A stretch of DNA of 64,000 nt from Stenopsyche tienmushanensis (taxonomy: Eukaryota; Arthropoda; Insecta; Trichoptera; Stenopsychidae). This document shows positions 11,533 through 61,329 of the stretch, one piece after another (position 1 is the first letter of the stretch; each line of letters begins with the position of its first letter). Where the stretch lies: NCBI GenBank assembly GCA_008973525.1, contig WACJ01000521.1:1984001-2048000 (forward strand), given 5' to 3'. The notes under the pieces are model-generated. The model saw only the letters and a program-made list of their open reading frames with translations. It was not told the DNA's origin and ran no database searches. A program made the position numbers and the translations under genes.

Positions 11533-14500
11533 GGAGCAAGTCGTCGACTTCACGATGCCTTTCATGAACCTGGGAATCTCGGTGTTGTACAGGAAGCCGA
11601 TAAAGCAGCCTCCCAACCTCTTCTCCTTTCTCTCGCCGCTTTCTCTCGACGTCTGGATCTACATGGCTACGGCGTACCTCGGAGTATCAGTGCTGTTGTT
11701 CATCTTGGCACGGTATGTCTTGCTTCTTCCACTACAAAACTACAATAACACTATTCAAACCATTCTCAGTCAAATATTATCTGCATTCGGTTGCTTGTAT
11801 GGATGTAAACTTTTACGATTTGACACCGTGTCTGAGGGACTGTATTTGGTCTCCATTAAATTTTATCACCCCATGGGGCAAAAATATTGACACATTCGTG
11901 CGCAACAATACAGTTTCCTGCAATTGAACGACTATTTTTAAATTTAGTTTACATCTAAATTGAATGATGGGTTACATTGCACCATTAAGATATATGATCG
12001 AAAAACAAAATAAAATATGATATGTAAGTTATGTATGTCCCTAAATATCTATTTATAAGCCTTTAGATAGTTCCTACTGCGAGACTCCGATGGAGATGAG
12101 CCACTTTATCGGGCCGATCTTTGCCATTCTGAGAACTGTAATCATAATTTTTAATAACATAATCAATTAAATTTACTTTTTAATCGCATTTGGAATCCAT
12201 TTTTCATCAGAGTTTAAGTTATTACACAAGAATATTCATATATAATGAATTTAATCAACGTAATAAAATTATAATAATGTAAGCTTTTACTTGAATGTAT
12301 TAAATATGTATAATTAATTACAATTAACAAGTTCATTTTCTCAGAAAATCTAATTCAAAACTTAAATTAATAATGAAAAATAAGCATTGTTATAGACCAG
12401 CGCTCTTTTAATATATAACACATTAATTTTGAAAAGGAAAATGTAAAAAAATCTAATCTCGCTGAAAGCTTAATACCATTATGTAACAAATTATTTTTTA
12501 AAAGGAATTTAAAATCAGTCACTCCGCGAGATGAAAACTTCATTAAGATAATGTTAAATGTTGCAATTTACTAGATTAAAGCCACCTAGGAATTGACCAA
12601 ATATTTGCCTTTTATTCATTTATAAATAGGTTTACTTATAAATATATGGATGAAGACTGTATTTATGCGGTATAACAAGTATTCAGTCCACGCAAATATG
12701 TTGCAGTGTTATATTTGTACTAAATAGTATGCATCCCAAAAGTCATGAAATATATTTTTTTGCCATGCCTTTTTGAATTTGAAAATTTGAGCGTCTTCTT
12801 AACCGAAGAAGACCATGATGAGCAAAATCCAAAGTGAAAAAAATGTTGTTTGTATTTTTTGACACCAAAGGGGTGACCTACAAAGAGTGTGTATCTCAAG
12901 GAAGTGCCCACTAAGTGAATATTCTGATAAAATTGATGAAAAAAGCATGCATGTATATGCATGTAAAAAAACATTGCCATTACTTGGGTACTTCATCACG
13001 ACAATGCCCTAGTCCCGGCTGACTTCCCAAGGACATTGGGTTGGGGGTTTCACTCTACACAAAAAGCCCCAGGGGGAAGAGTAACCCTACGTCCGTGGGT
13101 AACATTCTTAGGATATTTATGTGGATGGTAGAGGTGGGCGAAAGCAGTGTCGTCAGTTTGCTCATCAAACGCTACTGGGATAGGCTAGCTAACATAAGTT
13201 GGGTGTGTGGCATACCCTGGATTAGGTGGAACTGCTGATGACAGAAGGAATAGGACGATTTTGTGCAAAAGGCACTACAAATAACCAAGACCAATACAAG
13301 TTCCAAGAAGAAGGAGGAGCCCTAAGCTCATTCCTTCTTCTGGTGCACATAGTCTGAAGTTGATCTTCTTCGTGGAGTCTCGCCTCCCCTAGAGGGCGCA
13401 GAGTGAAAAGTGTGGGCATCAGAAAACTCTGTACGTATTCCTCCTGGCGATTAAAATACTGATGGAAAACGCTCTAGTCCGGAAGCACTAAAGTCATACT
13501 TCACATCAACGTGGGACATGAACACAAAAAAACTGGTAAGTCACTGTATGTCTGATCTCAGATTCACAGCGACATCTTCCGTCTCTCTTCAGGTGCAATG
13601 TGTTACTTTAACAGCGCCATCTCTCGTGGCCCTACGAAGACATTGCACCTGCATACCGATGGATCACTTCTTGCGCACGCACTGTTGCCGGTTGGGTAAT
13701 GACGCGCAGGATGCGGGAGTCGGGAGAGTCTTCGGTTAACCTTGGCTTCGGGAGATCGTCCCTCCTGCAAGCAAGGCATGTGGAATAATAAGTTATTTAG
13801 AGAAAAGAGTATTTTTATTCGATACCCGTCTATTCCCATCCATTCATCCAGCAACATCACAGACCGGTAGAAAAACGAACCTGTGCATTAACGCGGTCAT
13901 CCTGACGAGCACGTGAGAGTGGGGATCCACCTGGATCCACCGGGGATCCACCTCTGCCTCCAAAAGCGCTCCCGCCTTAACTTTACACTGGTGTCAGATG
14001 TAGGATTGACGAAAAAATTGATCAAAGCAGCATTGATGATATCCAAGCGGCCATCATTTTAAAAATGATATATTTCATGACTTTTGGGACACTTTTGTAA
14101 AATGGTTTTTTTTTCAATTATAATCTGTTTTTATGTTAATATTGATTTTGCATATGCGCCCAACGTTAAAGCTCACCGATGAGTCGCTATGTTTTTCATC
14201 TAAAAACATTTTAATCCCTAAAAATTATTATGCCAGGGACACATATTAGCGAATCCAAATAAGGGGTTTCATCTTTTTTAAATATATTTAACACAGGTCA
14301 TCAGGGCTGCTACCCATTGAATGTTATTTGATAAGCAACTGAATCTATTCTGGGTCAACTCACCTTTAAATAATAATATATATAAGTCAAAGAACTTTTT
14401 ACGCAATATCTAATGTGTCTAAATTCACTGGTAGTTAAAGAATAGAGTGGTAGATTTTGCACAATTATAACTTTTTTTTGATAAATTGATAAAATATGTG

Positions 14501-17500
14501 ATATCGCCAATATTATTATTTTTTTATTGAATAAGATTTCATAATAATATTATATTACAGGATCAACAAGATTGTCTAGAAATAATTTTTGATGTGTATT
14601 TATTATTAAAAGGGTAGTTAAAGTCGGAAACCTAAATTAATATTTGTTTTTCAATAGCACTTCAATCATGAAGATCCCTTCCAAATTACCTAAATATAAT
14701 GAAAAGTTGCCTCTGGTCAAATATTGGCTTTAGTTAACAAGTAACTAATTGCTGAAGATTAATAACATCGCCGTAAACATTTAACAACTGGCGATCTCAA
14801 AGGTCTTTAGGTCTACAAATAAGCGCTCTGTATATTTAGGATCTACGTTAATTTTCATGTATTCTTTGTGTGGATGTTTTGAAAAATGTGTGACATTAAT
14901 AGTTTCACCCCGTACGAGTGGCACAAACCGAATCCGTGCAACCCTAACAACCCAGACAAGCTCGAGAATATCTTCTCAATGGTCAATTGTCTTTGGTTTG
15001 CCATCGGTTCGCTGATGCAGCAGAGTTGCGACTTTCTACCCAAGTAAGCAACACACGATCTGACGACAAAAGACGCCTCCGATATAAGCTTCCCAGCCGA
15101 ATAAATAAACGTGTTTTTGGGAGCCTTTTGTCGCGCAAGTCGTGTCTTTTGTGTGTCGTTTTTATTTTTTTAACGCCACCCCCTTTTTGTTTGCGTCCTT
15201 CGGCGCCCCAGCTTCAGCCCCTACGAATGGGACAACCCGCATCCCTGCCTGGACGAGCCGCAGGTTCTGGAGAACCAGTTCTCTCTGTTGAACTCGCTGT
15301 GGTTCACCATCGGCTCCCTAATGCAGCAAGGTTCAGATATAGCTCCGAAGTAAGTTCAACCGAACATCTTTTCCTATATTATATCAAAGCATACTTCAAC
15401 AGACAATTTAATCCAATATCAATGATAATTTTAAACAAAATATCAGCTTCAAATTATTAGAGCTTGGAGAATGCTGAAAAATTGTCTGATGAAATATTCA
15501 GTTATCCCGTAATTTCAATCAAATTGAAGCTTTATCTAAATTTTGCTGCTTTCCAAAATCCCAGGTTTAATTTATTTTTTTAACATATTTATTTATGTAT
15601 CCTATTTATGAATTATTCATGAAATATTTCAATATTTTATTTAACGTATATTAACACATCAATAAATGAATTTCAGAGCCGTATCGACAAGGATGGTTGC
15701 TGGAATGTGGTGGTTCTTTACTTTGATCATGATTTCTTCATACACTGCAAATCTTGCCGCTTTCTTGACAGTTGAAAGAATGGATTCCCCAATTGAAAGC
15801 GCTGAAGACTTGGCAAAACAGACCAAAATCAAATACGGAGCATTGCGAGGAGGATCCACCGCTGCATTCTTCAGGGTATAAATCTTACATCGCCTAACAT
15901 CAAATATGGAATTGAATATATTAATCAGTTTTTTTTTTGATAGGATTCGAACTTTTCGACATATCAACGCATGTGGAGCTTCATGGAATCGGCTCGCCCG
16001 TCTGTCTTTACATCCAGCAATGTCGAAGGTGTGGACAGGGTTGTAAAGGGAAAGGGAAGCTATGCCTTTCTGATGGAATCTACTTCAATCGAATATGTGA
16101 TCGAAAGGAACTGCGAATTGACTCAAGTTGGAGGAATGTTGGATTCTAAGGGATATGGAATTGCTATGCCTCCAAGTAAGTCAGATAAAATTTATTCGGA
16201 TTCATTGCTGTAAAACATTGCCAAACACTCAATTGAAACGTCTTCACGATGCTTTTTTTATTTAATTGTGAGCAAACGCGGTACCCATCTTACGCACAGC
16301 TTTCTCATGTGCAAATTTTCAGTCAATACTTGAATGCTATATCCAAGTTTTACTTTTATTTTTGGCTTGAAACATATAAGCACTCCACCTGCCAGATTTT
16401 CCAATGACGATAAGTATCTTCCTTAATCCAAGCTAGTTCTAAGACGGTTGAGAAAAGATGGCTCATCCACCCTCTACTAAATCTTTTTTTTTCCAAAGGC
16501 ACTGATTCTAATATCTTCCCCCTCTCTTCTTAGAGAGTTTTAATTTATCAGGGAGAAAGATCGCACCTTAATTTTATTAGGGTTTTTCAATAGGGACGAC
16601 GTCAAAGTTTATTTAATTATAGTGGCCATATTGTTAAAGAAACATCTATCAAATTTATTGGGGACTATACCAATCCACACGAGTTACATGACCTCAAATT
16701 AAAAATAAAAAAGTCTTAACTGAAAAAAAATCTTACTAACTTATTGAGTGATGTGTTATCTACCCTACCTAAGAATATGATTTTAAAATAATGGACTAGT
16801 TTCTGATACACTTATAATAATATATCTATATGTAAAGAGATAAAATTTAAATATTGTAAGTGTTCTATAATTATTTTCAGACTCACCGTATCGCACTGCT
16901 ATCAGTGGAGCTGTATTGAAATTGCAAGAAGAAGGAAAACTGCACATTCTAAAAACACGTTGGTGGAAAGAAAAAAGGGGCGGTGGTTCTTGTAGAGTAA
17001 GTATTATTTTTAAATTAACGGGTTTTTGGAATAAGTTATTTAATTTAATTTAAATAAAGTAAGTATCTCTGTAACGGGTCCGTTCTTCTATCGAACTGTG
17101 ATGTTGCTGGACAAATGGATGGGAATACACGGGCGTCGAATAGAAAGACTCCCTTCTCTAAATAATGATTTATTCCACACGAGAGAGAGAGAGATCTGGC
17201 TGCAGGAAGGACGACCTTCCGCAGCCAAGGCTAACTGACGACCGGCAACGGTGCACGGGCATGAAGCGATCCACCGGTATGCACATGCAATGTGTCCACA
17301 GGGCCACAAGAGATGGCGCTGTTAAAATAACACATTGCACCTGAAAAGAGATGTAAGATGTCGCTGTTAACAGTGCTAATACGTGGGAATGGTAATCGCC
17401 CATGCTATACCTCAATTTACACAGTTTTAAAAATTGCAAATATTTTTTTAAATGTTTATGATCTTAAATTTAAAAATAATTGAACTTATATTCAGATTTA

Positions 17501-20500
17501 AATTTAAAAAATGTTCCCATGAAACCCCAACGAGTAGAAAGATGGGAGCGTCCGCATCTTAAGTAGTGCAGGGCTTCGCTCTCGACTCGCACATTCAGTA
17601 TACGACGGTTCTCCCTCGGTCTTCAAGGCGAGAGCGTGATTCTTAATCTCCAGCCGTTCTTATTATTTCAAGCGATTTTAAAACAAGGAGTACCTTTAGA
17701 AGGGGAGGAAATAATTATTCAAATATCTTTTAATAATGTAGCTTATTTATCCATTTCAATGATACTGGCAAAGATCACTGCTGCAATAGACTAAAATATC
17801 TACAGCAACAAAACACAACTATTCCCGAAGGAATTCATAAACAAATAGGCCACACATTGTCCTACAACCCCCAAGTTTTACTCCCCATTAGTTTTGCACA
17901 GTTTCCAGAGAATGTTGCATTATTTCTGATGATGCAACATTGCATCACTTGCGTTCCAATCTAATCATATTTGATAGAATGTTGGTTTAAATATCATATA
18001 CCCCTACCAAATTATTCCGATTATGGGCTAAAACAATATTTCCTTTCACCTTTATCACACAACCCTTAACAATGATTTGGAATACACTTTGGTGAATAAT
18101 CTGGGTATTGTCATGCGTTTAGGGAACTTTTTTTTGTTTCTTCAAAACCTCCAGAAAACTATTTCTATAACATTCAAGATAGTTGATTTAAAGCATCCTT
18201 ATTTCGAGACGACCTCACGACGTACAGTAGCGGATACTTCTGGGAAAACGTTGGGCGACCAAATTTTGTATAAACTTTCATGACTTCTATCCAAGCGGTC
18301 GTTTCCGACAAGGCTCCGGGGCCGCTCTGGAACTTTGCTCTAAGAACATCCCCGCTCCTGCCCTTCACTGGTGTCAGAACTTTCTAAATGCTACACTAAG
18401 ACAAACACGATCATATGAAATATTATTTCTCTAGGAATATCTTTTATGGAAATTGTCCATATATGTGATTTTAAAAATAGGTCATTTTATTGGAAGTTTT
18501 GCATCGTATCTTATGCATTTTGATGAATTGTTTTCAGGATGAGACATCTAAATCTTCGTCAGCTGCCAACGAACTAGGGCTGGCCAACGTAGGCGGCGTT
18601 TTCGTTGTCCTCATGGGCGGAATGGGCGTCGCCTGCGTGATAGCTGTCTGCGAGTTCGTCTGGAAGTCCAGGAAAGTAGCCGTGGAAGAAAGGGTGAGCA
18701 CTATACTGAGTGACACTTAGCTCTAATATTAGTGACGTGTTCCGTGCTGGATACGAACTTATCTATAAAATAAGCCTTAACAACGTCCACGTCCATCTTT
18801 TGCCATTTCTCGACATACTCTTCGTGCTGCGGAGCTCTCAAACCCTATATACAATTTCGGATAAAAATACGCTTAAACGAAAACGATAGTGCATGGATAC
18901 GTGTGAACATTTTTGTACTTGTACATTTTGTATAGAAGCATAATTAAGTGACGTATATCGAATAAATTAAAACAACGAACCCACTACATGGAATGTATAG
19001 ATTCGAATTTTAAAATTAATAAGTTATGCACATATTTTACATTTTAATTGATGTGGAAGTTATTTTGTTATGCGTCCTATAAATATATATATAAATTATA
19101 TTCTCATGGAGCTATGGAATGCTAGGAACGTTTATGATCTGGATGAATATGAGCAGAACATGTAGCAAAACGAACGGATGATTGGTATTTAAATTGGTGA
19201 ATAAAATCGATATAAAATGTTTTTAATGAAGATTTATATTAGAGAATGAGAAGATGTTTATATGGAGATAATGATGATGTTGTTATATTAACAATTTACA
19301 GTCCGTAGTCGTGTTTACGTTTTTATGTTTATGTTTAAATATATGGATGCAATAAACACTTTTGTAGACAGCATTGAAATTTCGATTGAATCTATTGGTC
19401 GGCTAAAGAAATATATCAATTTTATAAAACGAGCTAACGAGTGAATTTCTTCCGAAATTTTCCGTATTTTGGGCGACGTTTAACGCGGACACCCGGGCTG
19501 TAAAGTGTTAAAATTGGACAGAACTTGAAAACAAATCATTTGTTGTACAAAAATTTTATATTCGTACTAGTAAAAATTTATTTTCAACGATTCTATGACA
19601 ATAAATGTATAGATAAAATATATTGTTAAAAACATATTTGTTTGTGATGAAATTGATGATTTTTATTGGCTTAAATAAAATATCAACTTCCAAGCATGAG
19701 ATAACACAATCGATAGATGGATTGTCGTCATTAATTTTGTTTTGTTGGTAATGTACCTAAGTTTGTTGAACAAACACATAATTGGTTTAAGATAAGTCCA
19801 TTCTGAGAATCTATGAATGGAGGAATCAATAAGAAATTATAAAATTTCATAAATTCGAATGGAAGATTTATAAAATTGTTATTTCTTTTCGATTCCCATT
19901 CAATATTTTTATACATTCAATGTTTCATATATTTATTTATTTTTGTTTATTATTGACGCACTCTATAAACAATACGAGGGGAGTCCCAGATGTATCAGCA
20001 AATGGTTAATCCATAGTTATGAATCAACGCAAAAACTCGGCTGTATTGCTGTGAAATATCACCAAACACTCAATTGAAACATCCCCATGACTCTGTTTTT
20101 ATTCCATTGAGAGCAAACGCGGCACCTACCTTGCGCACAGCTTTTTCGTGTGCAAATTTTTAGTCAATATGCAATGTGCAACATTTTTTGAATCTATCAC
20201 TGAAAGTGTTCACTATTGATAACTGCCAAATAAACACTAAACATCTATACATCGGGTCGAATACTTATGGGACTATCCTCGAAGCTACTGTTCTTAATAT
20301 TGTTTCATTGAAAAATATTTTAAAAACCGTTAAAAAATATGTTATTTTAATATTTTTGGGGCATACACGTCAAATGCATCGATAAAGATATTTCAAATGA
20401 GCAAATATTTATTATTATTTATTATGATTTATTAAGTAGAATATTATGATTTATCTATTTTATTTTTATTTGCATGCCTGAAGGACTTATGAAACGAATG

Positions 20501-22161
20501 TGTTTTGTTTCTGCACTTTATTTTAAAATATGGTAATTTTTTATTTAATTTTTTTTTAAAAAAATATTTCATTTGTTAAAATTGATGATACAAAATGTTG
20601 AATAGATATTTACAAAATGACTATGTTAGTTGTCTGCGTATTGTTTTTTGCCTTCCTTTCGGGATCTCGCGTGTACGGATATAGGAGGTGAGTATCCAAT
20701 TTAAAACTATTTACAATTATTATAATATATTATTCATTGTATTTATCATTTAGATCCATTTATCATTGGGTAAGCAACTATCAGAAATTCTTTTGATTCT
20801 GACCTATTTATATTCCTTATTAAAATGCCTATTATCTATACAAGTTATACAATCCCCCAAATCCATAAATTATATCCAAATCCGCTAGACCAATTCTCTA
20901 CAACCTGCTTTTCCTTGATAAAATGCACAATAAAAGCCCATTTAACAATGTTTCAGTATCACATGATAGTATTGGGATTACCCAAAATCGCTCGTATTAT
21001 TGGTATTCCCCGAAATCTCACACGATTTAATTGCTTTGATAGAACTGCTTTTTTTTTAAATGTGAAGTAAAATTAATCGAAAACCATATAAATGTACTGT
21101 AAGCGCATATCAAATGCACGGAGCTTAATCTCGACCTTGTTACCGAGGAAATGGTTCTCGGCCGTAGAGTCTCGCAGCTGGATCACTTGTCTAGAAATAT
21201 TTTAAATAGAAATCCTAAATAGATCATAGGCGTATACCAGTTCAATCAAAGTCTCTAATGGGGAACAGGGACGAGCTCATGGGTATAGATCGCTAATCAT
21301 TAGTCTCACAGACTAAATCTTCCCCGCTCAGTACCTTTCTATACAAGTAAATTAGTAACCCAAGCCTATTTATTGCACGTGCAATTCAATCGTCATCGTC
21401 AAATCAACAAATCTTCCTCGCGTATGGTCTGTCCCAAAAGTCATGAAATATATATTTTTTTAAAAGTTTTATTGACAATACGGAACAAATTGTTAATATT
21501 CTTAAAAGTACTGTCCACGAGGATCTACATATTTTTCCCGCCGACGAAGACAATAAATATTGTTTTCTGACGCCATAGACTTGCTTGACCAATTTGTGAT
21601 TCAAGATCTCGAAACAAAGATGCACTAAATCAGCTATCCAGATGTTATTGATGATTGCAGCAGGCTGCACTTTAGTGCGTTATAAAGCTAAGGGTCTCTG
21701 CCACCTTACTCAATTATTTATAAAACGCTGCGACCAGTAGAAGGGTGGTAAAAAAATATATTTCATGACTTTTGGGATACATCCAGTATAGTGACGGGTC
21801 TATTCAAAAATAGCATTAGTGATCTAGAAAGTTAAGAAACATCATAAATATCAATTTTAAACTGTATTTATGCGGTATTTTAATGGACTCTGTGAGGGAT
21901 AAGGGAAAGTAGTATTATTTTTAGTTGATGAAAAAAATGATATTGGCATGACTTAAAGAAATGTGATTTTTTCAGGCATCTCTCTGTTCTGAGATGGCTT
22001 CGGAATTGCGGCAGGCTTTACGATGTCAAGGTAGCGGTCGTTCGAGTTCTAGCCGTAAGAGGGCGGCCGCCCCCGCCCACACGGACTTAGGCTCTCAGCC
22101 TGCAGGACTCAGCTCTCCCTATATGCACTACGGCTTCGGGGCCAAGGACTCGCTCAATTGA
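11533..22161 (+). CDS. Gene 1: kainate-type ionotropic glutamate receptor, 5' part not in view
   Basis: Glutamate-gated cation channel subunit of the plasma membrane. Exons seen: 11533-11712 (end of S1, DFTMPFM, then M1), 14903-15043 or 15212-15349 (alternative pore loops), 15677-15875 (M3 with SYTANLAAF, start of S2), 15944-16175 and 16881-16996 (S2 up to the RWWKEK motif), 18538-18693 (M4), 21976-22161 (cytoplasmic tail ending KDSLN, stop). All junctions have GT-AG borders and the phases fit. Of the agonist residues, the GGST turn in S2 and the Glu of FLMES are present. The first exon starts inside a codon (phase 2), so exons for the signal peptide, amino-terminal domain and most of S1 must lie upstream. 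I found none in 1-11532, which is then probably one long intron. The family call is firm; the exact orthologue is not resolved. Confidence 0.93.
13010..13440 (-). mobile_element. Non-LTR retrotransposon fragment
   Basis: Resembles 48000-49100: both share TTTGCTCATCAAACGCT and the GGTGCACAT/GATCTTCTT segments. Decayed, with no intact domain. Confidence 0.45.
13525..13998 (+). mobile_element. Gypsy-like LTR with primer site
   Basis: Carries the family blocks in order: TTCCGTCTCTCTTCAG, AACAGCGCCATCTCTCGTGG, GTTGCCGGTTGGGTA and a polyadenylation-like GGAATAATAAG. It ends ACTTTACACTGGTGTCAGA with the tRNA-Leu-type primer site at 13989-13998. The 5' edge is worn. Confidence 0.65.
14903..15043 (+). 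CDS. Gene 1 alternative pore exon A
   Basis: 141 nt (47 codons), phase 2 in and phase 2 out, encoding FTPYEW, a Pro/Asn-rich linker and the pore helix and filter ending [11 protein letters not shown]. It joins the M1 exon (CG+T gives Arg) and the M3 exon (AA+A gives Lys) without disturbing the frame. The acceptor (acattaatag) has almost no pyrimidine tract; the donor is gtaagc. It aligns codon for codon with exon B, 168 bp downstream, apart from one extra residue in the linker. Compared with normal kainate receptors, the Gly two places after the Q/R-site Gln is Ser. It has no stop and no frameshift, so it looks functional rather than a decayed copy. Confidence 0.88.
15212..15349 (+). CDS. Gene 1 alternative pore exon B
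   Basis: 138 nt (46 codons), the same phases as exon A. It encodes [24 protein letters not shown] and the filter [11 protein letters not shown], which is the standard kainate-receptor pore with Gln at the Q/R site and Gly in the filter. The acceptor is strong (long pyrimidine tract, ccccag) and the donor is gtaagt. Either exon alone gives a full-length channel. Because both are multiples of three, including both would not break the frame, so exclusion would have to come from splicing control. Confidence 0.92.
16206..16345 (-). pseudogene. Mariner transposase fragment
   Basis: Homologous to the segments at 19990-20180 and 60225-60575, sharing AACACTCAATTGAAAC and GAGCAAACGCGG. In gene 1's intron between the two S2 exons. 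Confidence 0.55.
17072..17416 (-). mobile_element. Gypsy-like LTR, 3' truncated
   Basis: Reverse copy of the 27586 family. It begins (minus strand) TATAGCATGGGCGATTACC, close to TGTAGCGTGGG, and keeps all central blocks and TTTATTCCACACGAGAGAG. The end with the primer site is missing. In the intron before gene 1's M4 exon. Confidence 0.65.
18215..18385 (+). mobile_element. LTR end with primer-site fragment
   Basis: GC-rich LTR tail ending CCTTCACTGGTGTCAGAA (primer-site start 18369). Just upstream of gene 1's M4 exon. Confidence 0.45.
19990..20185 (-). pseudogene. Mariner transposase fragment
   Basis: Reverse-strand match to 60400-60575: GTTATGAATC, CACTCAATTGAAACATCC and GAGCAAACGCGGCA appear in inverse order. 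Confidence 0.6.
20617..20687 (+). CDS. Candidate first exon encoding a signal peptide, inside gene 1's last intron
   Basis: ATG at 20617 opens [20 protein letters not shown], a convincing signal-peptide profile, and runs into a good donor (gtgagt) after 71 nt. No following exon could be assigned. It might be the start of a small secreted-protein gene nested in gene 1, or chance in AT-rich DNA. Confidence 0.28.
21427..21783. mobile_element. Deleted mariner/MITE with terminal inverted repeats
   Basis: TGTCCCAAAAGTCATGAAAT at the left and its complement ATTTCATGACTTTTGGGATA at the right bound 357 bp. The same ends bracket the element at 12724-14096. No usable transposase remains. Confidence 0.7.
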
Positions 22162-31424: not shown

Positions 31425-34400
31425 ATGGATATTAATAAGGGGAGAATGTGGAAGCTATTATCAGTATTTTTAATTTTAACTCTCAATCTCCAAAAATGTC
31501 GAGCAAATCACCTAAAACTTGGTAAGTCTAAATTAAATACATTAATTAAAACATTTTTTTGAATACTGCACAATATTGAATTTGTTAAATATGCCCTTTT
31601 CAGGAGGTATATTTGATGTCGATGAACAAAAGGCGGCTTTTGAATTTGCCATCGATAAACTAAACGAAAATGTAAAAAACACAAACAAACACAAATTTGT
31701 CGGCTTCGCCAAAATTAATGACACCGCGACGGTATCAAAACAAGCTTGCGGCTTATTAGAGGTTTGTGATCTTTATTTGGTATATTGCGTCATAGTTCAA
31801 TGTCTAACGGATTTATAATAATTAGGAAGGCGTTGTTGCTATTTTTGGGCCTGGGTCTTCCAAATCATCATACGTCGTAGATTCGATCTGCGAATCAAAG
31901 GATATTTCGCATTTGGAGACCAGAATTGATGCTTATCAGCAGGGTGGACCAAACCAAATCAATTTTTATCCACACCCATCGGGCATTGCTAAGGTATTAC
32001 ATCAAATCATTTAAAAAATGATCAAATCATCATCATTTATTTTAAATAAAAATATGATCGAATGTATTTTCAGGCGGTCACCGATTTGATTACGAAATTG
32101 GACTGGCAATATTTCACACTATTTTATGAGAATGGTGAAAGTCTTGCTAGGTTATCAAAATTAATTGAAACTACGACAGGAGGACTGTCTCCCTTTACGA
32201 TAGTTTTGCGACAGATTGACTTCGGAATGGGAAAAGATTATAGGTTTGTTCTAGATTTTGCAAATCTTTTGACGTAAAATTGTTATTAATAATTCGACAA
32301 AATACATCCCAAGTCAGATTTTTTGTATTAATATTTGTTTTTCTACAAAAAACATGATGACTCACCGGTGAGTCATTGGCACTGATATGGTACATGAGTT
32401 GCCGCTTCTAAATTAGCCATCAGCAATTTTTATTTTTTGGCGTTCCTACAGTAAAACATGTTTAAAAAATTAATGAAAAAAGATTTTTAAATTAAATAAT
32501 TTTCAGGTCGATTCTTAATGCTGCTAAAAATCAAAGAGAAAGCAACTTTATAATTGATTGTTCAACACAATTCCTGAAGGATTTCCTAGCTCAAGCACAA
32601 CAAGTTGGACTCATGACTGATGAAGAAACCTATATTATCACAAATCTTGATATGCATACAATAGACTTGACACCATTCCAATATTCAGGAGTCAACATTA
32701 TGGGTATTTTATCATCATTTTTAAATAATTAAGGGGGTATTCTTGTTTCGACATGGAAATTTAATTTCCCGATTTTGCACCATGCTGTACACTTTGCTCG
32801 CGGGCTGGCGCGAGGGTGAGAGCAAGTTCCTCGTGTTGCTTAGGCCGTGCTAATAAAGTGCTTTTAGATTCACAATATTTTTCCGTATGATGCGTACCGT
32901 CTGGCAATAAATGATTTGGGCGTGAGCAGCCCACATACAGCTGTCCATGTGAGAAGCATGCACGCATACCCTGTGTATTTCTGTTCTTTTTTGATGCTCG
33001 CACCGAAAACTGCACACGTTTCAATTCGATATTCGATCAGTCTGATATTTAATAGTAGTGTAGTGATATTTAATTAAAATTGACTTATAATAGTGGATTT
33101 GTTCTTCATACACCCTATTTAAAAAATTGATTTTAAATAAAAATATCTATATAAGGTTGTGTTTTTATAGTCTATTCAATACTTTTTTTTCAAATTTAAC
33201 CTTATTGAGCTATCATAAATTAACAATTGATCTTGTTTTGATGAATATAGGCTTCAGACTTTTTAATTCCAAAAACAAAGCTGTTGAAGATGCTGTCAAT
33301 GATTTCAATAAATACATTAGAGATAAAAACTCATACAGGATTAATATGCCAACCGTTGATAAGTTATCGACCGAATCTGCTCTCATAATTGATGCAATCA
33401 AAGCTTATGCGTCAGTATTGGATGCTAATTTCCCACAACTGAGCTTCACCGACAAAATGAGTTGTAGCGATAGTCGCACTTGGAATCATGGCAAAAGGAT
33501 TATAGATCGTTTGAAAGGGGTATGCATTCTTTAAAATTGCAATATATCAAACCAAATTAATATCTTAATGGACGTTAAATTACAGTCTACCAGCGTAGGA
33601 CTCACAGGAAAAATGCAATTTGAAGACGGGCTTAGAACCAAATTTACTCTATATATCGTCCAGCTTACCAAAACTGGAACCAAACAGGTATTTAAATGTA
33701 TATGTATGTATATATATATATTTTAATTTTCAAAAAGTTTGTAAAATAACGGGCATTCGATCGCGTTTTTTAAAGTTTTTAAAGGCAAAAATTATAATCG
33801 AATTTTTACCTTTGTCCGATATTTTGAACCATTGCGCTCAATAAGCGTGACTGGTGTCTACGTGGATCAACTTTCAAAGTAAGGTTACAAGAGCTCCTGA
33901 CACCGGTGGAATATTTTTATTTCGAGGTTGGCGTACCTGCTGTGTAGGAAAGTTGCGTGCACCTACTGTGTTAGTTTGTTTGGTTCCACGTGTTTGTCGG
34001 CCATTTTGTTCAGTCACAGTAAATTCTTCCGATGGAGAAGTTGTCATGCGTTCCCACTATTTCCCGTCCGTGCAAAACTCTCACCACTGATGATTTGGGG
34101 CTAAGTAAACTAAGTAAGCTAAATACTTTTCAACAGGTGATCAGAAAGGAGGGGGGAGGTATTTAATATATCTACTATAAGGGCTTAATCTATTAATTTG
34201 AACTCGACAGGTATACTGTTTGAAATAGGAACCATCGAATGCGCATTTGGCGCCGATACTAGAGCAAAAGATTTTAAAGGCGGTAAAAGGCACCGGGGCA
34301 GGTCACTAGGTCTTTGTGTCTAACAGGTTCACGGCAGGGGCAAAGCTCTCTAACTCTACAACGAAGTTGTTTACTCGGTGCTATTGTACGGTGTGCCAAT

Positions 34401-37400
34401 ATTGGCCGAGGTACTACGTGTTGAAAGGGCCTGGCTCAACCTGGCCAGAGTCCAAAGAAGAAATACGATCAGGGTGGCTGCTGCGTATCGCACAGTATCG
34501 GAAGATGCTAACCCGGCACTGACTGCTATTATGACAATTGACCTGCTCACCCAGGAGAGACTGGCTGTATAAAAAGGAGAAACAAAGAAGGCAGCCGGAG
34601 AAACTACAACGGCGGTGTGGCAGTCTCGATGGGACAGCTCTACAAAAGGTCGATGAACACATGAACTAATACCAAACCTGGAATTGTAGATGGCTAGGCA
34701 ACATGGACAAATGTATTATCACTTGATCCAAATTCTCACCGAACATGCTTGCTTTGGCAGCTACACCAAGAGAATATATAAAAATACAAGCCCGGAATGC
34801 CATTACTGCTTAGCTGACAATGATGATGCTACACACCCGGCATTCATGTGTCCAGCGGGGAGCATTGAAAAGGATACCCTATGCAAGGAGCTGGGGGAAA
34901 ATTCGTTCTCGCCCAACAGCATGATGCTTTCAATGCTCAAGAATGCTAGGACTTGAATGCGTGGTGCAAATACACAAAGTGCGTTATGCAGCAGAAGGAA
35001 AACGCCGGACGTGAGAGGCAAAGAAGAAATTCTGAAGCACCCCCTTAGTGCAATACTTAATTAGTAGCATGATGGTAGCAGAATAGAAGGGGGGGTTTTA
35101 GTGGGAAGAAATCCCACACTACCACATAATAGTGGTGTCTATTGAACATTTCCCTTTGAAGAAGACAAAATCAGGTCCAAGACGGGGATCTCGAACATGG
35201 TACAGGAGCGCTTCTCTCTTGGAAGCCATGCCCAAACATTCTGCGCCCATGAACGAATCTTTGCAAGAACACTCCGGACTATTAGCAATACTTAACTTCG
35301 CTTGGTACGCAGTGAAATAGTCATGTCCCGTCAATAACTGCAATCAGGAAGTTCAGCGATGAGCTACTTACTTTAATAATTTACGCAGATGATCACCTCG
35401 AAGATCTGTAAGGGTGATTCCTCATGGTATTCGTATTGTTTCGGTAATTTATAGTACCTAGCCATGGAAACGAGTCGCCGTTCGAGCTGCCAAAAGCCGT
35501 TCTCCCCTATATAGACTAAGCTGTTGAAGCTAGTAGTGTTGACTTTTGTAATCGGTAGTTCCACATTCCACTTTAGGACTACACAGCACAGGGCACGCTG
35601 CGCACCCAACTTATATTAGCTGGGCTACCCCAACAGCGTTTGATAGAAAAATCGACGAGGCTGCTTTCGCGTACCTCTAGGAATTATACTGTTACCTACG
35701 GCGGTAAGGTTGCCACCTTCTTCTGGGGTTTTATAGGTGGATACCGTAGAGTGAAATACCCGCCCGGATGAAGTGGGTTAAGTTGTAGTAAAAAAATTCC
35801 CCTACACGAAAAAAATAGTGGGTGTTAGGTTAGGGTGAGACGTGGGTGTATCACTACGCCCTATATTTATACAATTTTTTTTCCAGATTGGAGAATGGAA
35901 TTCAGAAGCTTTAATTTTAAATCAAAATTCAAACGATCAACAATATTCATTTGAAGATGACAATATCGCAAATAGAAATCTACGCATCGTAGTACTCCCA
36001 GTTGGTTACATTTTATTTCTATGATACAAATATAATTATAATAAAATTTAATCGTGTTAAAGACATGTTATTTATTGTGCAGAATATGCCTTATGTTGGC
36101 TTGAAGCCGTCTTCGGATGTTCTTGTAGGAAACGATCGCTTTGAAGGTTTCGGAGTTGATTTGATCGAAGAAATATCCAAAATTGTCGGATTTAAATACA
36201 CTTTCTTCGTACAATCGGACAGAATGTACGGCGTGTTACACCCCGCAACAAAGAAGTGGACTGGAATGATCAGAACGCTATTAGATAATGTAAAATTTAC
36301 ATACGATATGCTTACATCAAATCCAAATATAACCCGGAATTTTGCCATACAAATGTATTAATGATATATAAAGATGCAAATGGATTATCTTATTATTTTG
36401 CATAGCTTTCTACATTAGAAATATATTTATTCAATTGAATAGGAAGCTTTTTGATCGCGCAACTGAAGAAAAAAGGCGATGGGTAGCAAAATTCCGGGTT
36501 ATATTTGAATTGTCCTTGTGCTCAATTAATTTTAATCTTGACGTAAATCTTTCAGAAAGCTGATCTTGGCATTACTGACATGACAGTAACCGCAGATCGT
36601 AGCAGTGCTGTAGATTTTACGATGCCTTTTATGCAACTCGGAATTAGTATATTGGCCAAAAGGCCAGCGAAAGATCCCCCTAGTCTATATTTTCTCCTGA
36701 CCCCATTTACATCACAGGTTTCAATCGATTCACTTATCTTTATAAAATCCTTAATGTGTATTTATACCAATATTTTTTTTAGGTTTGGTTTTATCTGGGC
36801 ATTGCATATTCAACAATACCAATCTTAATATTTATACTATCTAGGATGTCGCCAAAAGAGTGGCGAAATCCTCATCCTTCCATCCAAGAGCCAAAACAAT
36901 TAGAAAATCAATTCAGTGTCTCTAATTCAATATTTTTTACAGCCAGTAGTGCATTTCAACAGGGTTCAAATTTGGCACCAAAGTCAGTAAAATTATTTTT
37001 AAGCTGTCATCTTCAACCCTACTATAGCGTCCACAATTTTGTACGGGTGCCTAATTTTTTATAGCTTGGTCCCTATCTCAACGCTATAGGAGGGTTGACT
37101 GTATTCAATTTAACCAAGCAACGAACCTTTTAAAAATACTTCATATTCATCGACAGAGCGATTTCAACCAGAATCATGGCCGAAATATGGTGGCTCTTTA
37201 CCCTTGCTGTGGTGTGTTCTTATATAGCAAATTTAGCTGCAATTTTGTCTTTTGGTTTAACTACCTATTTAATCCCTATTAACAGTGCAGATGATCTTTC
37301 TAAGCAAGATACAATTAAATATGGAGCAGTGATGGGTGGCGCAACATTCGCCTTCTTCAAAGTATTAAATCATTTAAATCGAACTCTATTGAATAATTTC

Positions 37401-40400
37401 AAAAATGTATTTTTTAATATCTTAAAATTGAATTATTTGATTTTAAGAATTCAGATCATCCAACATATAAAAAAATATATGAATATATGGAATCACATCC
37501 AGAAGACATGTGTGCAAGTTATAGTGAAGGTGTTGAAAGGTGATTTTTGACATATGTTAACACAAGATGCGGCAAAAAAAATATCTATTACTATTAAACT
37601 CATATTATAATTAACGTTAAGTTTTAATCTTTTAAATGAGCTACATTTTACTCATTTTAAAATAAATATCGCTTCATGGCGTGTGTTTAAAATAAGGAAA
37701 TTTCCCTGTCGCACCCTGTAAATTCTTGATTTTTTTATTATAGTTCAATCTGTTGATAAATTTGCCTAATAATTTTAGGGTAAAAAACGGAAAATATGCC
37801 ATGTTTATGGAATCAACCACCATTGAATATTTAGTAGAAAGAAATTGTGATCTACAAATGATTGGCGGGTCTCTTAATGATAGATCATATGGAATTGCAA
37901 TGCCGAAAAGTATAATTTCAACAAATTAATTTTTCAAATAATCAAATACACATCCAGTCATATATGACTTTAATAATCGATTGCATCATTTTTGTATTTC
38001 AGATTCAACTTACAGAAACGCCATAAATGGAGCCGTGTTGAAATTACAGGAAAACGGAGTTATATCATCACTCAAGTTCAAATGGTGGAAAGAAAAGCTC
38101 CGTGCCGGAGATTGTGTCGTAAGATATCATTTTGAATACAATTTGAATACAAAATCATGCAAATAACGCTAAAATCTGACAAAAAATGGTAATAAAAGGA
38201 AACCATAGGGTCTTTCAATAATGGCTTTCTAAATTTGTTTGATCAATATGGTCAGTTTTCGAAAACATAACGAACGCCATTGAACAATAGCAAAGTCATT
38301 GAAAATTGGGCCTACCGAATACGTGCCAACAAGCAAAGCCGCGGCGGACATTTGAAGGACGCTATATTCCAATATTTGTTGCCATGTGCAAATATACTTG
38401 CATATGAAAAAAATTGAACGGATATTTCACACACAGCTTGTTTTAATAGACTGTCCAGTCGAAAATGTCGTTTTTTAAATGAAAGAGTTAAATTCAAGCA
38501 AAAAACTTTTTAGTGAATTTCGTCGATATAATGTATTTCGCTTCAGTAGATACAACATTTTCCCATCTATTTAATATTTTTCAATTCCAAACAAATAAAA
38601 TTCAACGGGTTTTGATATAAAATATTTTTCGATTCCTTTTTCCACTTCTTCTATATTTATCGTTTTTTTCTAATAAATTATGCTGCATCGGTCTAAATAA
38701 ATGATAATCGGTAGGAACAAGGTCAGGAGAATACTTAAAAAAAAGAGCTTTTACTTTATAAATATATACTGAATTATCTATTCGGGGCCATTTGACATGT
38801 CAATGGTCCGAAAAGCGGACCAGTTGAACACAGCGGTAATAAACCTTGAACCGGGGCATTCTATTATTCTTTTTTTTTTGCGCGAGGAGGGGAAATGTTT
38901 TAAATTTACATATCGGACCAGTACTCGGCAGTAATGTGGAAATCCGGATTAAATCTAAAATTAAACTAATTCCAAAATTGTAAATCCAGATCCGGCTACC
39001 CACTAAAACCCCTCCTCTCCTTCGACTTCCACCCGGCTACTAATTAAGTATTGTTCAAGAGTGGCAACTATGTTTCCCTCTCGGGTTGTCCTTTGTCCCT
39101 GTCATTCGGTCAGGTCGACATTAAATCAGCAATTGAGGATGTTTTCACTTGCCTTCTTCTCTTTATTCGTTCAGCGTCTTCTTTTTGCTGCATAACTCAC
39201 TTGATAAACCTGTTCCACGCACTCCATGTCCTGACATCCTTGAGCATTAAAGGGATCATATTGTTGGGCAAGAGCGGATCACAGTCGAAACCCATTGGGG
39301 GAAATTATCCCTTTCAATATGCCATGCAGGGCAGATGAAAGTCGTATGTTTAGCATCATTGTTATTTTCTTCGCAGTGATGGCACTCCGAGCCTGTTTCC
39401 TTGCCTATTCTATTCAGGTAGCGACATTGAAATGCGACCATGCAGCCGTTTAGGTTAATTTGGAGAACGGTGGCCATTTATCTGCCGTTTCACGATCTCC
39501 CTATATTCGGGGCACTTCTTGGTCACCGTGCAATTATCCGCGTTGACTCTTTTTGCTTCGCATGTCTGGCAACAGGGATCCTTGGTACAAGCAGCTGCCT
39601 TGTGGCCTGCCTCCTCACACCAACGACATGCCGCGGAGCAATCCGGGTTGAAGCAATCTTTGGATATGTGGATATGCCTGGATAGGCACAGTGGCAATTG
39701 CCAGTTGGGTGCCCCACGACCCCGCCTTCAGATATCGCACCCTGACCGCCTCCTCGTTTGTAAGGTTGCTAGCTCTGCACAAGACCGTGGCAACGTCGCC
39801 CTGATCTATTTCGAGGATCGTGAGAGTTTTCACTTGCACCAGCTGCCTAATCTCTGTTTCCGGTCCCAGTGAGCCCGTTATCGCCTTAACGAGAGTGACT
39901 GGCTCTTTTGAGCCCCTTTCCATCTCAATGATTGCATCCCCTTTCCTCTTCTTCCTTATGGATGCAATCTTGGATCCTAGCTCGTCAGACTTCAGGTCGT
40001 TGCAGGGGGTCTTGAGAGTTTCGGCACACGTGCTTCCCCCCTTTTTCCCCTCTTCAAGACTGATGATAATGGCGTCGTTCCTAGGTTTGCGCGGTTTCTG
40101 TTTCCCCGTCGTCTTGGCCTTCCTTCGAGGTTTCTGTTCCCATCTCCGTTTCTTGCTGCCGACTACCGTCCACTCGTTTATGGTCGGTGTGGCAGCTGAT
40201 GTTCCGGCAGGCTGTGTGAGTATCAGTATATTCGTCTAAGGTAGTGACAACGTAGCTTTTGGTTTAGGATGCTTAGCCTGCGGTGGTGATGGCTTTCCTT
40301 TGGAGCTCCTGGCTACCTCGTTCCTCAGTTCGAGAACGACCTTCTCGGCATTAACCAGACTCCTTAGTACTTTCGGCGGTACCGCTTCTTGTTTGTGGAT

Positions 40401-44670: not shown

Positions 44671-47600
44671 ATGGAGAAAACGTGGGCGCTGCTGTCAATA
44701 TTCTTATTTTTAACTCATCAATGTCTGGCGCAAGAAATAAAAATCGGTAAGTCCAAACAGATGTACATCGAAACTGAAAGTTATGGCTATTTTTAATAAT
44801 CCAGAAAGAGATCCATGCCGAATTAATCGTTGATCATCATTTGATCTGTTTATTAAAATGTTATGCTATTTAAATGTGCACATTATTGTTAAAGCATGCA
44901 AGATGCACTCATTAAGATAACTATTTTAAGATTGCGTTTCATTGCGCAATATTGCAAACGTCGGCCAAATTACAGGAATGTATTATTTTGCGCCTGAATT
45001 GCTATTTACAACATGCAAAACCAAAGGCTATCAATTTTCTTAATGTATGCCAGATTGTTTGCTTGTCTGTTCACTATTTGAACCAAATGTAGACGTAGAT
45101 CAAATTAAGTGTTTATATTGAGATGTCTAGTCAATTTCCAAGCATCTGGAATAAGAGAGAGGCGCCCAACTGCGAGACTCCGTAGCGTTGAACCATTTTA
45201 TCGAACATGACTAAATGAGGTATTCTAATCTAGATTTTTGATAAAATCGATTGTGTTTTTTGATATATTTTCAAAGATTAAACTTTTAAGACTATATCCT
45301 CCAAAAAATACTAATATTTATGGAGATACAACTATTTTTGTGAAGCTGCAACTAAGCCGGTCCAGTACCAGAATGAAATTTCAACACTATTGATATTTTA
45401 TCTCAAGTTCTAATCAAATGATTTACTTTAAATTTGGTACAAGCTTTTTGTATATAACCTTCTATCGTTTTTACCAAAATATATATCAAAATTTTATTTT
45501 TATCTATTAAAAAAAATTAAAACTGCAAAAATAAGGATAAGAAATTACTTTTTTTAAACAGTATTTTTTTCTTTGAAGTAGAAACCATAGCCACATATTT
45601 AAATATTAAGAACCTTTTTTTATAAATAATTTTATATGAGTAGAAGAGTTCAAATCATGTCAACTAGGACAAGCTCCTTTTTTACCACTTGCAGTTTATC
45701 AGTCTATAACTTTTTTTAAAAAAATCTAAAAATATCTGATAAAACGCCCAAAGTTTGTGCATATAGACTAGAATACTCCCTAAAGCCAGCTCGGATTTTT
45801 TTAAAAATACATTTTGATTGTTCAGGTAAATTTAAATTTAGTTTGTTCAATTTATAAAAATAAAAAAATGACCTATATATCGGCACAGGGTATTTTTTTG
45901 GCAAAAAATTGACATTAAAAGGGTTAAGCCTCGCTCTCAATCGAATGCTGGTTTAATCCCCTTGTCTTGAAGAATCGTTGGATAGCCTTGAATGCGGGAG
46001 GACATCCTTCCCGCGGCCAGATCTCTCTCTCATGATTAATAAAGAAGCTATCTAAGATGATAGACTTTCTATTCGATGCCCGTCTACCTCCATGCCATTC
46101 GCCCTCGGTCCTATGCTTCATATGTATAATAATATCTAATTTTATCCATTTATAAAGGGGGCATATTTGACACTGAAGATGAAACCCAGGAAAAGGCTTT
46201 CAAATTCGCTGTCGACGCAATTAACGAAGAAGCATCATTTTTGCCCGACCATAGATTGGTCGCCATTACGAAAAATATACCATTTGATGATGCATATGCG
46301 GCATCACAAGAAGCTTGCCATTTAATACAGGTTTGTATCCAAATTTCATATCATCCTATTTCGTAACAATATCATTTTAATATACAATTTTTTTTATAGG
46401 ACGGTGCTATTGCTATTTTCGGACCAAGCTCAGGAAAATCATCATATCATATAGAGTCGATCTGCGAATCTAAAGATATTTCTCATTTGGAGTACAGAAT
46501 CGATGCTAATCAGCAAGTGGGAAAGAATCGAATCAATTTTTATCCACATCCCTTGAGCTTGGCTAAGGTATTGATCGACATTGAGAGCTTATAAATAATC
46601 ATAATGTTTACTAAAAATGAATGATTTATAGGCCGTTGTAGATTTGATTACGAGATTCGATTGGAAAGAGTTCACTATACTGTATGAAAATAATGAGAGT
46701 CTCGTCAGGCTGACAAATTTATTCGAAATTGAATCCAATACAAAACCATTTACTATAGTTCTACGACAATTAGATCTTGGAATGGGTTTAGATTATAGGT
46801 ATGTTTTATTTAATTATTTCATGCCTGCTTATTGATGGTATTGGATATTGATGGTGCAATTTTCAGAATGATTCTTTATACGATCAAAAGCAAAAAAGAA
46901 AGAAATTTCGTCGTCGATTGCTCGACGAAAGTCCTGGAAGCTTTAATGGTTCAAGCTCAGCAAGTAGGTCTTGTGACCGATGAACAAAGCTATGTTATAA
47001 CAAATCTTGATATGCATACACTAGATTTGACTCCATTCCAATATGCTGGTACTAACATCACAGGTATACAAATGTATATTTTTTAATCGATGTTTTCTAT
47101 AAAAATTGAACTTATAAATCAGCAATGATCGAATGCAGGTTTCAGGCTTTTCACCCCTGATGACAAGGACGTCATAGAAGCAGTTGATGAATATAACGAA
47201 TACTATGAAAAAAGAAAAGATGAACCCACAGATGATATGGAGTACTCTGATACTCCAATAGTTTCTGTCCCCAACGATCAAGAAGAAGAAGCATTGTCTT
47301 CAGATGCATTATCGACCGAAGCTGCACTCATAATGGATGCAGTTTACGCTTATGCATCAGTATTGAACTCTGAATTGCCACATCTGAATTATACCAGTAA
47401 TATTGTAGATTGTGATGATCTTCAATCTTGGCATCACGGATCAACAGTTATGAACTATATCAAAACGGTAAATATTAATATAAATATACTAATGGGTCTT
47501 TCAATAGTGATGCTCAAACTTGGTTATGGGATAGCGATCATATTATTAATTCAACGTCTGTTAAATTTATGATATATTGATAAATAATATATGACAAATT

Positions 47601-50600
47601 ATTGTAGAAAGTAATAGCGCAAGTCGGGAATGGGGTTTGTTCTGAATAAAAACTCTGGCATCTATGTTAAATTTTAACCCTATTAACAACAGAATATATA
47701 CGCTGCTTATAAGAAGCAAAGTGCATGACTTATCCGGACCTTATCGGTGTGTATGTAAGCTCCCACAGAGGAGACAGGTGACAGTATCAAGGATATAAGG
47801 AGGCACACACTTCATTGCCCTCTTACGATGCCAAAATAGTTTTAGAGGATTTGAATGCGAAAGTTGGTAAATAAATCTTCTACAGTCTCACAATCAGAGC
47901 CCGTGGTTTCACAGCACCAATTTTGAGCACAAATGCACGTGGTAATCTGCTGACGAGGTCACCCGAAATCAGATTGACCATGTGTTACCGGGTGGGTGTT
48001 ACACTCCACGATGCCCACCCCTGCGGTAATAAAATGGAGTAAGTTTGCTCATCAAACGCTGCTGGGGTAACCCCGCAAACATGACTTGGTTACGCAGCTC
48101 ACCCTGTGCGGTGTACCCATAAAGGGGAATGTGGAACTGCTGTAGCTCTATTCAAACTGAGGTTGAACTCGTGGACTCGTAGTGACCCCGCTGGATTGCA
48201 TCCTTTGAATCTACAGTAATCTCTTTTTTTTCGAAAGAGGGGAATCTTTTCAAAACACCGTCAATTTGGGGTAGTGTGAGATATGACTCACTAAACCCCT
48301 TCCTCCGGTTCCGCCGCCACCCGGCTAACGTACAGTATTGACCTAGGGTGGCGGAACGTATCCTTCTCGGGCTTCATGTTAACACTTAGCGTGTTGTCGT
48401 ATTCTGGACCAGCCTCCTTTTGAATTTAAACAAGTAGCTATCATAACAACCGTGTCCAGTGAGTGCCTGGGTGAGATGGTAGCACAGCTGACCGTGTTTC
48501 CTGGATGCCCATGTCCTCAGGTCCGGAATGAGCCGATGTATCCATCGGCCTTTGGCGGAGCTGTCCCATCGCGACTGTCATTCCGCCATGATGTGCTGCC
48601 TGGCGCTCTGTCTTGTAATATATAGGCCATCGTACATTGCCTTCCACAAGGTGGATCCGAGCACCGAGCCGACTCCCACAGTGACTGATCTTTGTTTGCT
48701 CGTCCTGTCGGCTTCTGTATATATCAATGTCCTGTTGTGCAGGTAGCTCTCCACCATTCTGGTTAAGTATGGTGGGACGTCAATTTCCTTCAAAGCCCTG
48801 TTTATCAAGTCCCACCTTGCAGATCCGACGGTCTATAAGCCGACGGGTCATCCCTTTGAGGATGAGCACCAGCTTCTGGCGCTTCCAAGGTGCTGGGAAT
48901 ACCTCGAACCTCTCTCTCTCTTACCATAACCTCTGTCCTTCCTTCTCCAACGCACCTTCGGGTGCACATGATCTGAAGCTGATCTTCTTGCGGGAACTTC
49001 GCCTTTTTTGGATCGCGCAGAGCAAAAGGGGTAGGCGCCTGGATGCTCTGCGCGTAGCGTTTCTTGTGGGACAGATCAATAGAGGACACTCTCCGCTAAT
49101 CCGGGAAAACCTGGAACAGATCACACGGCACTGCCAGTAATAGGATCTGTATTTCAAGTCCATACACGCCTGTAAGACACTGTCTGTTTGTTATTCTGCA
49201 TTGACCATGTGTTCGTAGATAGAAGACATACAAGTAATATGGCGGACGTCAGAATAATGTATGGGATGAATTGCGACTCCGATCATTATCTTGTAAGAGC
49301 AAAATATGCTTTTAGGGTAAACTTTATTTACATTTAAAAATTTAGCGTCCTTATTGAAAGACCCCAAGTCCTGCATGGAATTGTTTAATAGCTTTGTTTG
49401 TTTACAAATATGAAATTGTTTTGTTACAGGCCACTATTGATGGACTTTCAGGATTAATAAAATTCGACGATGGACTTAGGACAGATTTTACACTTTACGT
49501 TGTCCAACTTACCAGAACTGGAATCCAAAAGGTCATTAATTTTAAATAATTTTCAAATCACTAAATACTCATCTCATATAGATTTAATGCATTTATTCCG
49601 TATGATTTTAGATTGGCGAATGGAATTCTACAATGTTGGTTTTGAGCGGTGATTCAAACATTCAGCAAATACCGTTCGAAGATGGCATATTGATGAACAG
49701 GACTTTCCGAATCTTGACGGCCATTGTTGGTTTTATTTTCAATTCGGTCAATTCTTCTATAGCGTCTAATTAGGGACCACGCTAAGTAAATAGACGCTAT
49801 AAGAGGATTGACTATACTATGAATTATGTTAAATATTATTATATTTAAATTATTATATTGTTGATTAGAGTAAGCCTTATGGCTTGAGGAAAGAATCTTC
49901 AACTACTTTAGAGGGAAATGATCGCTACGATGGCTTCGGAATAGAATTGATCCAAGAAATATCTAAAATTCTTGGATTTAACTACACATTTTCATTGCAA
50001 TTGGATGGCAATTATGGCAACATAGATAAAGTGACCAAGGAATGGACTGGAATGCTCCGAGAAGTGATGGATAACGTATGCCAATCGATGCAATACTGCT
50101 TCAAATATAAAAAAAATACATTTTGATATCATTTTTCTGTATATTTTATAGAGAGCAGACCTTGCCATCACTGATTTGACAGTGACTGCAGATCGCGATA
50201 GTGCAGTGGACTTTACAATGCCATTTATGCATCTCGGAATCAGTATATTGTATAAAAAACCGACAAAACAACCCCCCAGTCTATTTTCTTTCATGTCACC
50301 GTTTTCAAACGAGGTTTGACCGATAATTTTATTTGTTTTAATTTTTTTATACATTCATATTAATACAGTGTTTATTTTTAGGTATGGTTCTATCTGGGTA
50401 CTGCTTATTTAGGCGTGTCAGTATTGACATTCTTATTAGCCAGAATTTCACCGAAAGAATGGCAAAATCCCTATCCTTGCATCCAAGAACCGGAACAATT
50501 GGAGAATCAATTCAGCATGGCTAATTCTCTTTGGTTTACAGTCGGCAGTGTGCTACAACAGGGGTCTGAATTAGCGCCAATGTCAGTACAATTGTGGATA

Positions 50601-61263: not shown

Positions 61264-61329
61264 CAATAATAAATTAGTCAGCCTGATTCACGCTTGGCGA
61301 CTAAAGTGTTAATGCGTATATTGTCTTGG

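Follow-up and report, generated by a model that had tools for sequence, protein, structure and literature searches.

Two homologous pore exons in a caddisfly KaiR1D-type kainate receptor gene: a candidate splice choice at the selectivity filter

In this study we characterized two neighbouring exons, A and B, in a 64,000-nucleotide stretch of the genome of the caddisfly Stenopsyche tienmushanensis (the window). Our best explanation, to which we give a probability of roughly 0.7, is that they form an old alternative pore-exon pair in a KaiR1D-type kainate receptor gene. Splicing would put either A or B into the mRNA, and the resulting subunits would differ only in the 46-47 residues that make up the M1-M2 linker, pore helix and filter. 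Exon B would keep a nearly invariant filter, QQGSD, and exon A would be the copy in which individual lineages alter the filter: from Gly to Ser two residues past the Q/R site in Lepidoptera, Trichoptera and leafhoppers, from Gln to Arg at the Q/R site itself in Hymenoptera, and in both ways in a louse. The choice of exon would thereby set Ca2+ permeability, conductance and polyamine block, as Q/R-site editing does in vertebrate GluK1 and GluK2.

The gene that holds the pair (gene 1) lies on the + strand and only its 3' part is in the window; no exons 5' of 11533 were found within the 64 kb, and the gene runs off the window, with its 5' half outside. The exons were placed by splice reading and by alignment with P0021, a protein of Arctopsyche grandis (Trichoptera, Hydropsychidae), as follows.

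11533 to 11712, + strand: constant exon, end of S1 and M1 (EQVVDF...LFILAR), ending in phase 2; aligns with P0021
14903 to 15043, + strand: exon A, M1-M2 linker, pore helix and filter QQSCD; 47 of 47 residues identical to P0021
15018 to 15020, + strand: exon A Q/R-site codon CAG (Gln), with the Ser codon at 15024 to 15026
15044 to 15211, + strand: intron between A and B, 168 bp
15212 to 15349, + strand: exon B, M1-M2 linker, pore helix and filter QQGSD
15324 to 15326, + strand: exon B Q/R-site codon CAG (Gln), with the Gly codon at 15330 to 15332
15677 to 15875, + strand: constant exon 3' of the pair, M3 with SYTANLAAF and the start of S2; splice reading and alignment with P0021
15944 to 16175, + strand: constant exon, S2; splice reading and alignment with P0021
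16881 to 16996, + strand: constant exon, end of S2; splice reading and alignment with P0021
18538 to 18693, + strand: constant exon, M4; splice reading and alignment with P0021

Exons A (141 bp) and B (138 bp) are each preceded by AG and followed by GTAAG. Both are in phase 2 at either end, completing a split Arg codon at their start and opening a split Lys codon at their end, and either one splices 11712 to 15677 in frame. Their proteins are 58.7% identical over 46 columns (tblastn E 1.3e-14 within the window), a sequence likeness far beyond chance, and the Pfam domain Lig_chan is matched by A (E 8.7e-08) as well as by B (E 2.2e-09). In being homologous neighbours of similar length and equal phase, they resemble a mutually exclusive pair. 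The original prediction had described two intact, homologous, same-phase exons 168 bp apart, each encoding linker, pore helix and filter, with Gly in the filter of B and Ser in that of A; its coordinates proved exact and its description is borne out on every one of these points.

By its sequence, gene 1 is a KaiR1D-type kainate receptor gene. It has the Lig_chan domain and the expected sequence motif, and kainate receptors are its nearest relatives of solved structure: GluK2 for the B form (E 7.3e-112) and, for the A form, a chain named 'Glutamate receptor' followed by GluK2 in second place. Furthermore, P0021, which matches closely over the shared exons, is annotated as 'kainate-type ionotropic glutamate receptor subunit 1D isoform X2'. 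Outside exon A, the shared exons differ from it (tblastn) by one mismatch per exon, at exon ends where codons split; in the first of them P0021 reads EQM and the window EQV. An A isoform is therefore already predicted in public annotation, for Arctopsyche grandis. The search that returned P0021 was built from exon A alone, and we infer that isoform X1 of the same species carries B. AlphaFold modelling of the A form (P0021, 40 sequences) gave a mean pLDDT of 60, and that of an A+B form (P0014, 35 sequences) a mean of 59; in both, most of the pore region was below 50. M1, the pore helix and M3 appear as helices in these low-confidence models, from which we draw no conclusion.

Several other features of the window touch on gene 1 and its surroundings. 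Read-through of the M4 exon donor (18694-18720, + strand) gives the tail VSTILSDT and then a stop, and at least 13 of the 287 fetched proteins finish with a similar sequence (VSSILRDT, VRNILQDT, VSSILHDT, VRNILEDT or VSKILQDT), suggesting that intron retention yields a conserved alternative C terminus. Further downstream, an open frame at 21967-22161 (+ strand) ends in SPYMHYGF and resembles the usual C terminus of gene 1 isoforms in other insects; gene 1 therefore probably extends to about 22.16 kb. The intron 5' of exon A contains a segment (about 13600-13900) with further copies near 7.6, 17.1, 27.7 and 43.4 kb; it gave no Pfam match and is probably a piece of a dispersed mobile element. 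Arrays of a 187-bp tandem repeat occupy 61329-63321.

Two more kainate-type receptor genes stand in tandem with gene 1, at about 31500-38200 and 46130-51510 (both + strand). Each has one pore segment, near 36849 (SAFQQGSNLAP) and near 50445, and no second pore exon was found for either of them within the window. In both, M1 and the pore lie in a single open frame, uninterrupted by the intron seen in gene 1.

For the wider comparison, three protein searches contributed the best 120 of 145 matches, the best 120 of 7,457 and all 117 matches, respectively. The entries are clusters at 90% identity, so that isoforms of one species can be hidden. From the 287 proteins fetched, the 197 of pancrustacean origin (P0001-P0197) were classified by exon type; the remaining 90, from fish and one nemertean, were not included. 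A- and B-type exons recurred in many insects. A alone was present in 104 of the 197 proteins, B alone in 63, and A followed by B in 30.

Is one exon used in place of the other? In all 17 of the same-species A/B isoform pairs that we picked, the predicted isoforms are identical before and after the pore exon; these pairs were chosen by hand, on species name and length, and are not exhaustive. Spliced sequence also supports the swap. P0073 is a complete A-only protein of 903 residues on a contig of 3,662 bases, a length that leaves no room for the introns, and A was therefore spliced there without B; P0142 is a B-only protein on a contig of 3,579 bases. Similarly, A occurs alone in P0086 (Hedya) and P0110 (Lobesia), which have no genome contig and which we take to be antennal transcripts. 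Together with the annotated A isoform and the recurrence of the exons in insects, the 17 pairs uphold the original reading of an alternative pore-exon pair in a kainate receptor gene.

However, the 30 proteins with both exons mean that exclusion may leak or may not be the rule, and as most of the isoforms used here are predictions, strict A/B exclusion is putative. Exon A could instead be a cassette that is often included together with B, giving a two-pore A+B product that does not conduct, so that inclusion of A would mainly lower the amount of working receptor. One of the 30, P0196 (Aulacocentrum), for which there is no genome contig, may be a transcript. Neither frame nor space would block A-B splicing: both exons are multiples of three, A joined to B also reads in frame (the original remark that frame cannot enforce exclusion was right), and in the intron between them 130 nt separate the A donor from the best branch-like A, which precedes the B acceptor by 38 nt; steric exclusion is therefore unlikely. 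Against a role as cassette, A stands alone in more than half of the proteins (104/197), in the chosen pairs the A form differs from the B form only by the swap, and a repressive cassette need not have retained a pore helix and filter for so long. We consider this explanation unlikely.

The acceptor tract of A is 35% pyrimidine at positions -20 to -4, tied lowest among 19 acceptors of genes 1 and 3, and that of B is 71%, tied highest; a pyrimidine-poor acceptor would fit regulated use of A. The original contrast of a weak A acceptor with a strong B acceptor stands on this measure, but a leave-one-out matrix built from the same sites ranks them in the opposite order (A 3.2, B -15.8). We give this matrix little weight, as it comes from 18 mostly AT-rich sites, each placed at the nearest AG, and is too small to rank A against B; even so, it lends the contrast no support. 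Folded as RNA, 14860-15400 is more stable than most shuffled versions (z -2.4; 2 of 100 as stable), which, without orthologous introns, is uninformative on exclusion.

The clearest difference between the two exon types is in the filter, whose positions we count from the Q/R site (621 in GluK2). Gln-Gln-Gly was found in all 93 B units, and 90 of them read QQGSD, all as QQGSDIAP; the exceptions have Asn at +4, Ser at +4 or Cys at +3 (one each). Among the 134 A units, 78 read QQSCD (Lepidoptera, the caddisfly, two leafhoppers and one other) and 44 read QQGCD. Ser replaces the filter Gly in 79 A units and in none of the 93 B units, and Arg occupies the Q/R site in 12 A units and, again, in no B unit, although the third search was begun with an Arg-bearing exon, which favours Arg. 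These 12 comprise all 11 hymenopteran A units (P0128, P0137, P0146, P0151, P0190-P0194, P0196 and P0197) and that of the louse Menopon gallinae (P0136), which has Ser two residues further on as well. Lepidoptera dominate the sample, and the proportions of filter types are not frequencies in nature.

Within this sample, the aligned proteins place the filter changes in A only. The Ser of the caddisfly exon is, on this comparison, lineage-specific; the original prediction of a Gly-to-Ser swap is thus true of the caddisfly, but it is no general property of exon A, given the 44 QQGCD units and the 11 hymenopteran units with Arg. Judged by taxonomy, the Ser and Arg changes would each have arisen at least twice. 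On a tree of pore peptides the Ser-bearing units were joined weakly (83/77), and they may group there because of the Ser itself. Arg in A against Gln in B at the Q/R site, as a genome-encoded switch would require, is seen with the 11 hymenopteran A units and the louse unit, and not in the caddisfly, where both exons encode Gln.

The swap might nevertheless act on something other than permeation. Two alternative exons could be in use while their exchange alters linker packing, assembly, gating or partner binding, the filter differences being secondary. A and B do differ in the linker and pore helix too (NCLWFAI in A, NSLWFTI in B), and A keeps both Gln and Gly in many orders (the 44 QQGCD units). 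However, Ser or Arg appears in the filter of 90 of the 134 A units vs none of the 93 B units, and the Arg position is known to control Ca2+ permeability; we regard this account as quite improbable.

The pair appears to be old. Among the matches listed, A units came from mayflies, Orthoptera, stick insects, a termite, true bugs, leafhoppers, psyllids, a louse, a lacewing, beetles, Lepidoptera, the caddisfly, Anopheles, Hymenoptera and malacostracan crustaceans; the malacostracans contributed A units only, with no B units among the matches listed, and no Drosophila proteins are named among these matches. In a tree of 65 pore peptides (46 columns), the 32 A units formed one clade (97/96), and this phylogeny shows a single origin for A. 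B was not one clade: the pores of genes 2 and 3 of the window nest within it, and a mosquito B-type unit is placed beside the A clade. Outside the insects and malacostracans, one gene model of the ostracod Notodromas monacha (Oligostraca) contains an A-like unit followed directly by a B-like unit. Its first unit, which the search pattern missed and which is not among the 134 A units, scores better with A than with B when compared with the mayfly units (213 vs 194), but better with B than with A when compared with the exons of the window (187 vs 170); its second unit scores higher with B in both comparisons. This single model suggests that the exon pair predates the split between ostracods and insects.

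Such conservation bears on whether A is simply a decaying duplicate that the caddisfly does not use. A has diverged more than B (mean identity 75% vs 87% in the 30 A+B proteins), and its acceptor in the caddisfly is pyrimidine-poor. However, the caddisfly exon is open and of full length, has A-specific residues in common with crustaceans and belongs to an annotated isoform, and A-type exons recur in many insects, which contradicts the condition originally set for refuting the pair, decay of A in orthologues. Decay was rejected on this conservation, and we judge it extremely improbable.

Published work bears on whether such a pair would affect permeation. According to PMC12580572, selectivity is set by the M2 loop, and GluK1 and GluK2 receptors with Arg at Q621 are impermeable to Ca2+; PMC8257547 likewise has Arg at the Q/R position controlling Ca2+ permeability. 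Against both, the review PMC3391646 states that Ca2+ permeability may rise when kainate subunits are edited. In a placozoan receptor and in GluA2, Ca2+ permeation is lowered by a Ser at the Q/R site (PMC12226733), but the caddisfly Ser is two residues beyond that site, which makes this only a hint; we found no test of a Gly-to-Ser change at that distance in the literature searched. PMC12226733 also describes an Asp four residues past the Q/R site as necessary for polyamine regulation, and this Asp is present in both caddisfly exons.

We think of B as the default pore, and of A as one that each lineage has re-tuned; the pair would be a genome-encoded Gln/Arg switch in Hymenoptera and a milder change of either sign in the caddisfly. 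The choice between A and B is presumably regulated by cell type, and the swap would be expected to alter permeation. With about even confidence we propose, more widely, an ancient pancrustacean splice switch of the filter that does by exon choice what Q/R editing does in vertebrates (literally Gln/Arg in Hymenoptera, Ser in caddisflies, moths and leafhoppers, both in a louse). It would control Ca2+ entry, would have been re-tuned repeatedly and would predate the divergence of ostracods and insects.

The filter residues of a kainate receptor govern Ca2+ entry, and if exon choice sets them in insects, this would be a second, independent route to an outcome that vertebrates reach by RNA editing. 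As the A and B forms are otherwise identical, the exon, or Ser or Arg alone, could be assessed for its effect in single steps, and RNA could serve to type neurons as A or B. It is also a warning that insect KaiR1D should not be treated as one channel. By title and the start of the abstract, we found no paper on alternative pore exons of kainate receptors in the open-licence literature, a scope that leaves aside most subscription papers and all supplements; this is not a claim that such exons are unpublished.

Finally, the pair can be compared with known systems. The Drosophila Cav2 channel cacophony is likewise an insect channel with mutually exclusive exon pairs absent from vertebrates, in the accessible text of PMC11828482; it is, however, a voltage-gated channel of another family, and we liken the two by description only. 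The predicted fish GRIK1 proteins among the matches listed share Arg at the Q/R site with the hymenopteran A units, but have a single pore segment per protein, with no exon pair seen. For GluK1 and GluK2, the splice variants described in the available part of PMC12580572 differ at the N or C terminus. The flip/flop exons of AMPA receptors, as set out in PMC8257547, are also tandem homologous exons of which one or the other is used. They encode the last part of S2, ahead of TM4, and influence gating, whereas the gene 1 pair encodes the pore itself. Furthermore, double inclusion of flip and flop shifts the frame, and the product should be degraded, whereas double inclusion in gene 1 is in frame; junctions joining flip and flop reach up to 12% in human data (same source). 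Q/R-site editing of GluA2, GluK1 and GluK2 also changes the filter within one gene product, and its Gln-to-Arg change is the one that the 11 hymenopteran A exons encode at the homologous site. Here the change would come by exon choice instead of base editing and would bring some 12-19 further residue changes with it, and in the caddisfly the site is Gln in both exons, with the Ser of A two residues on.
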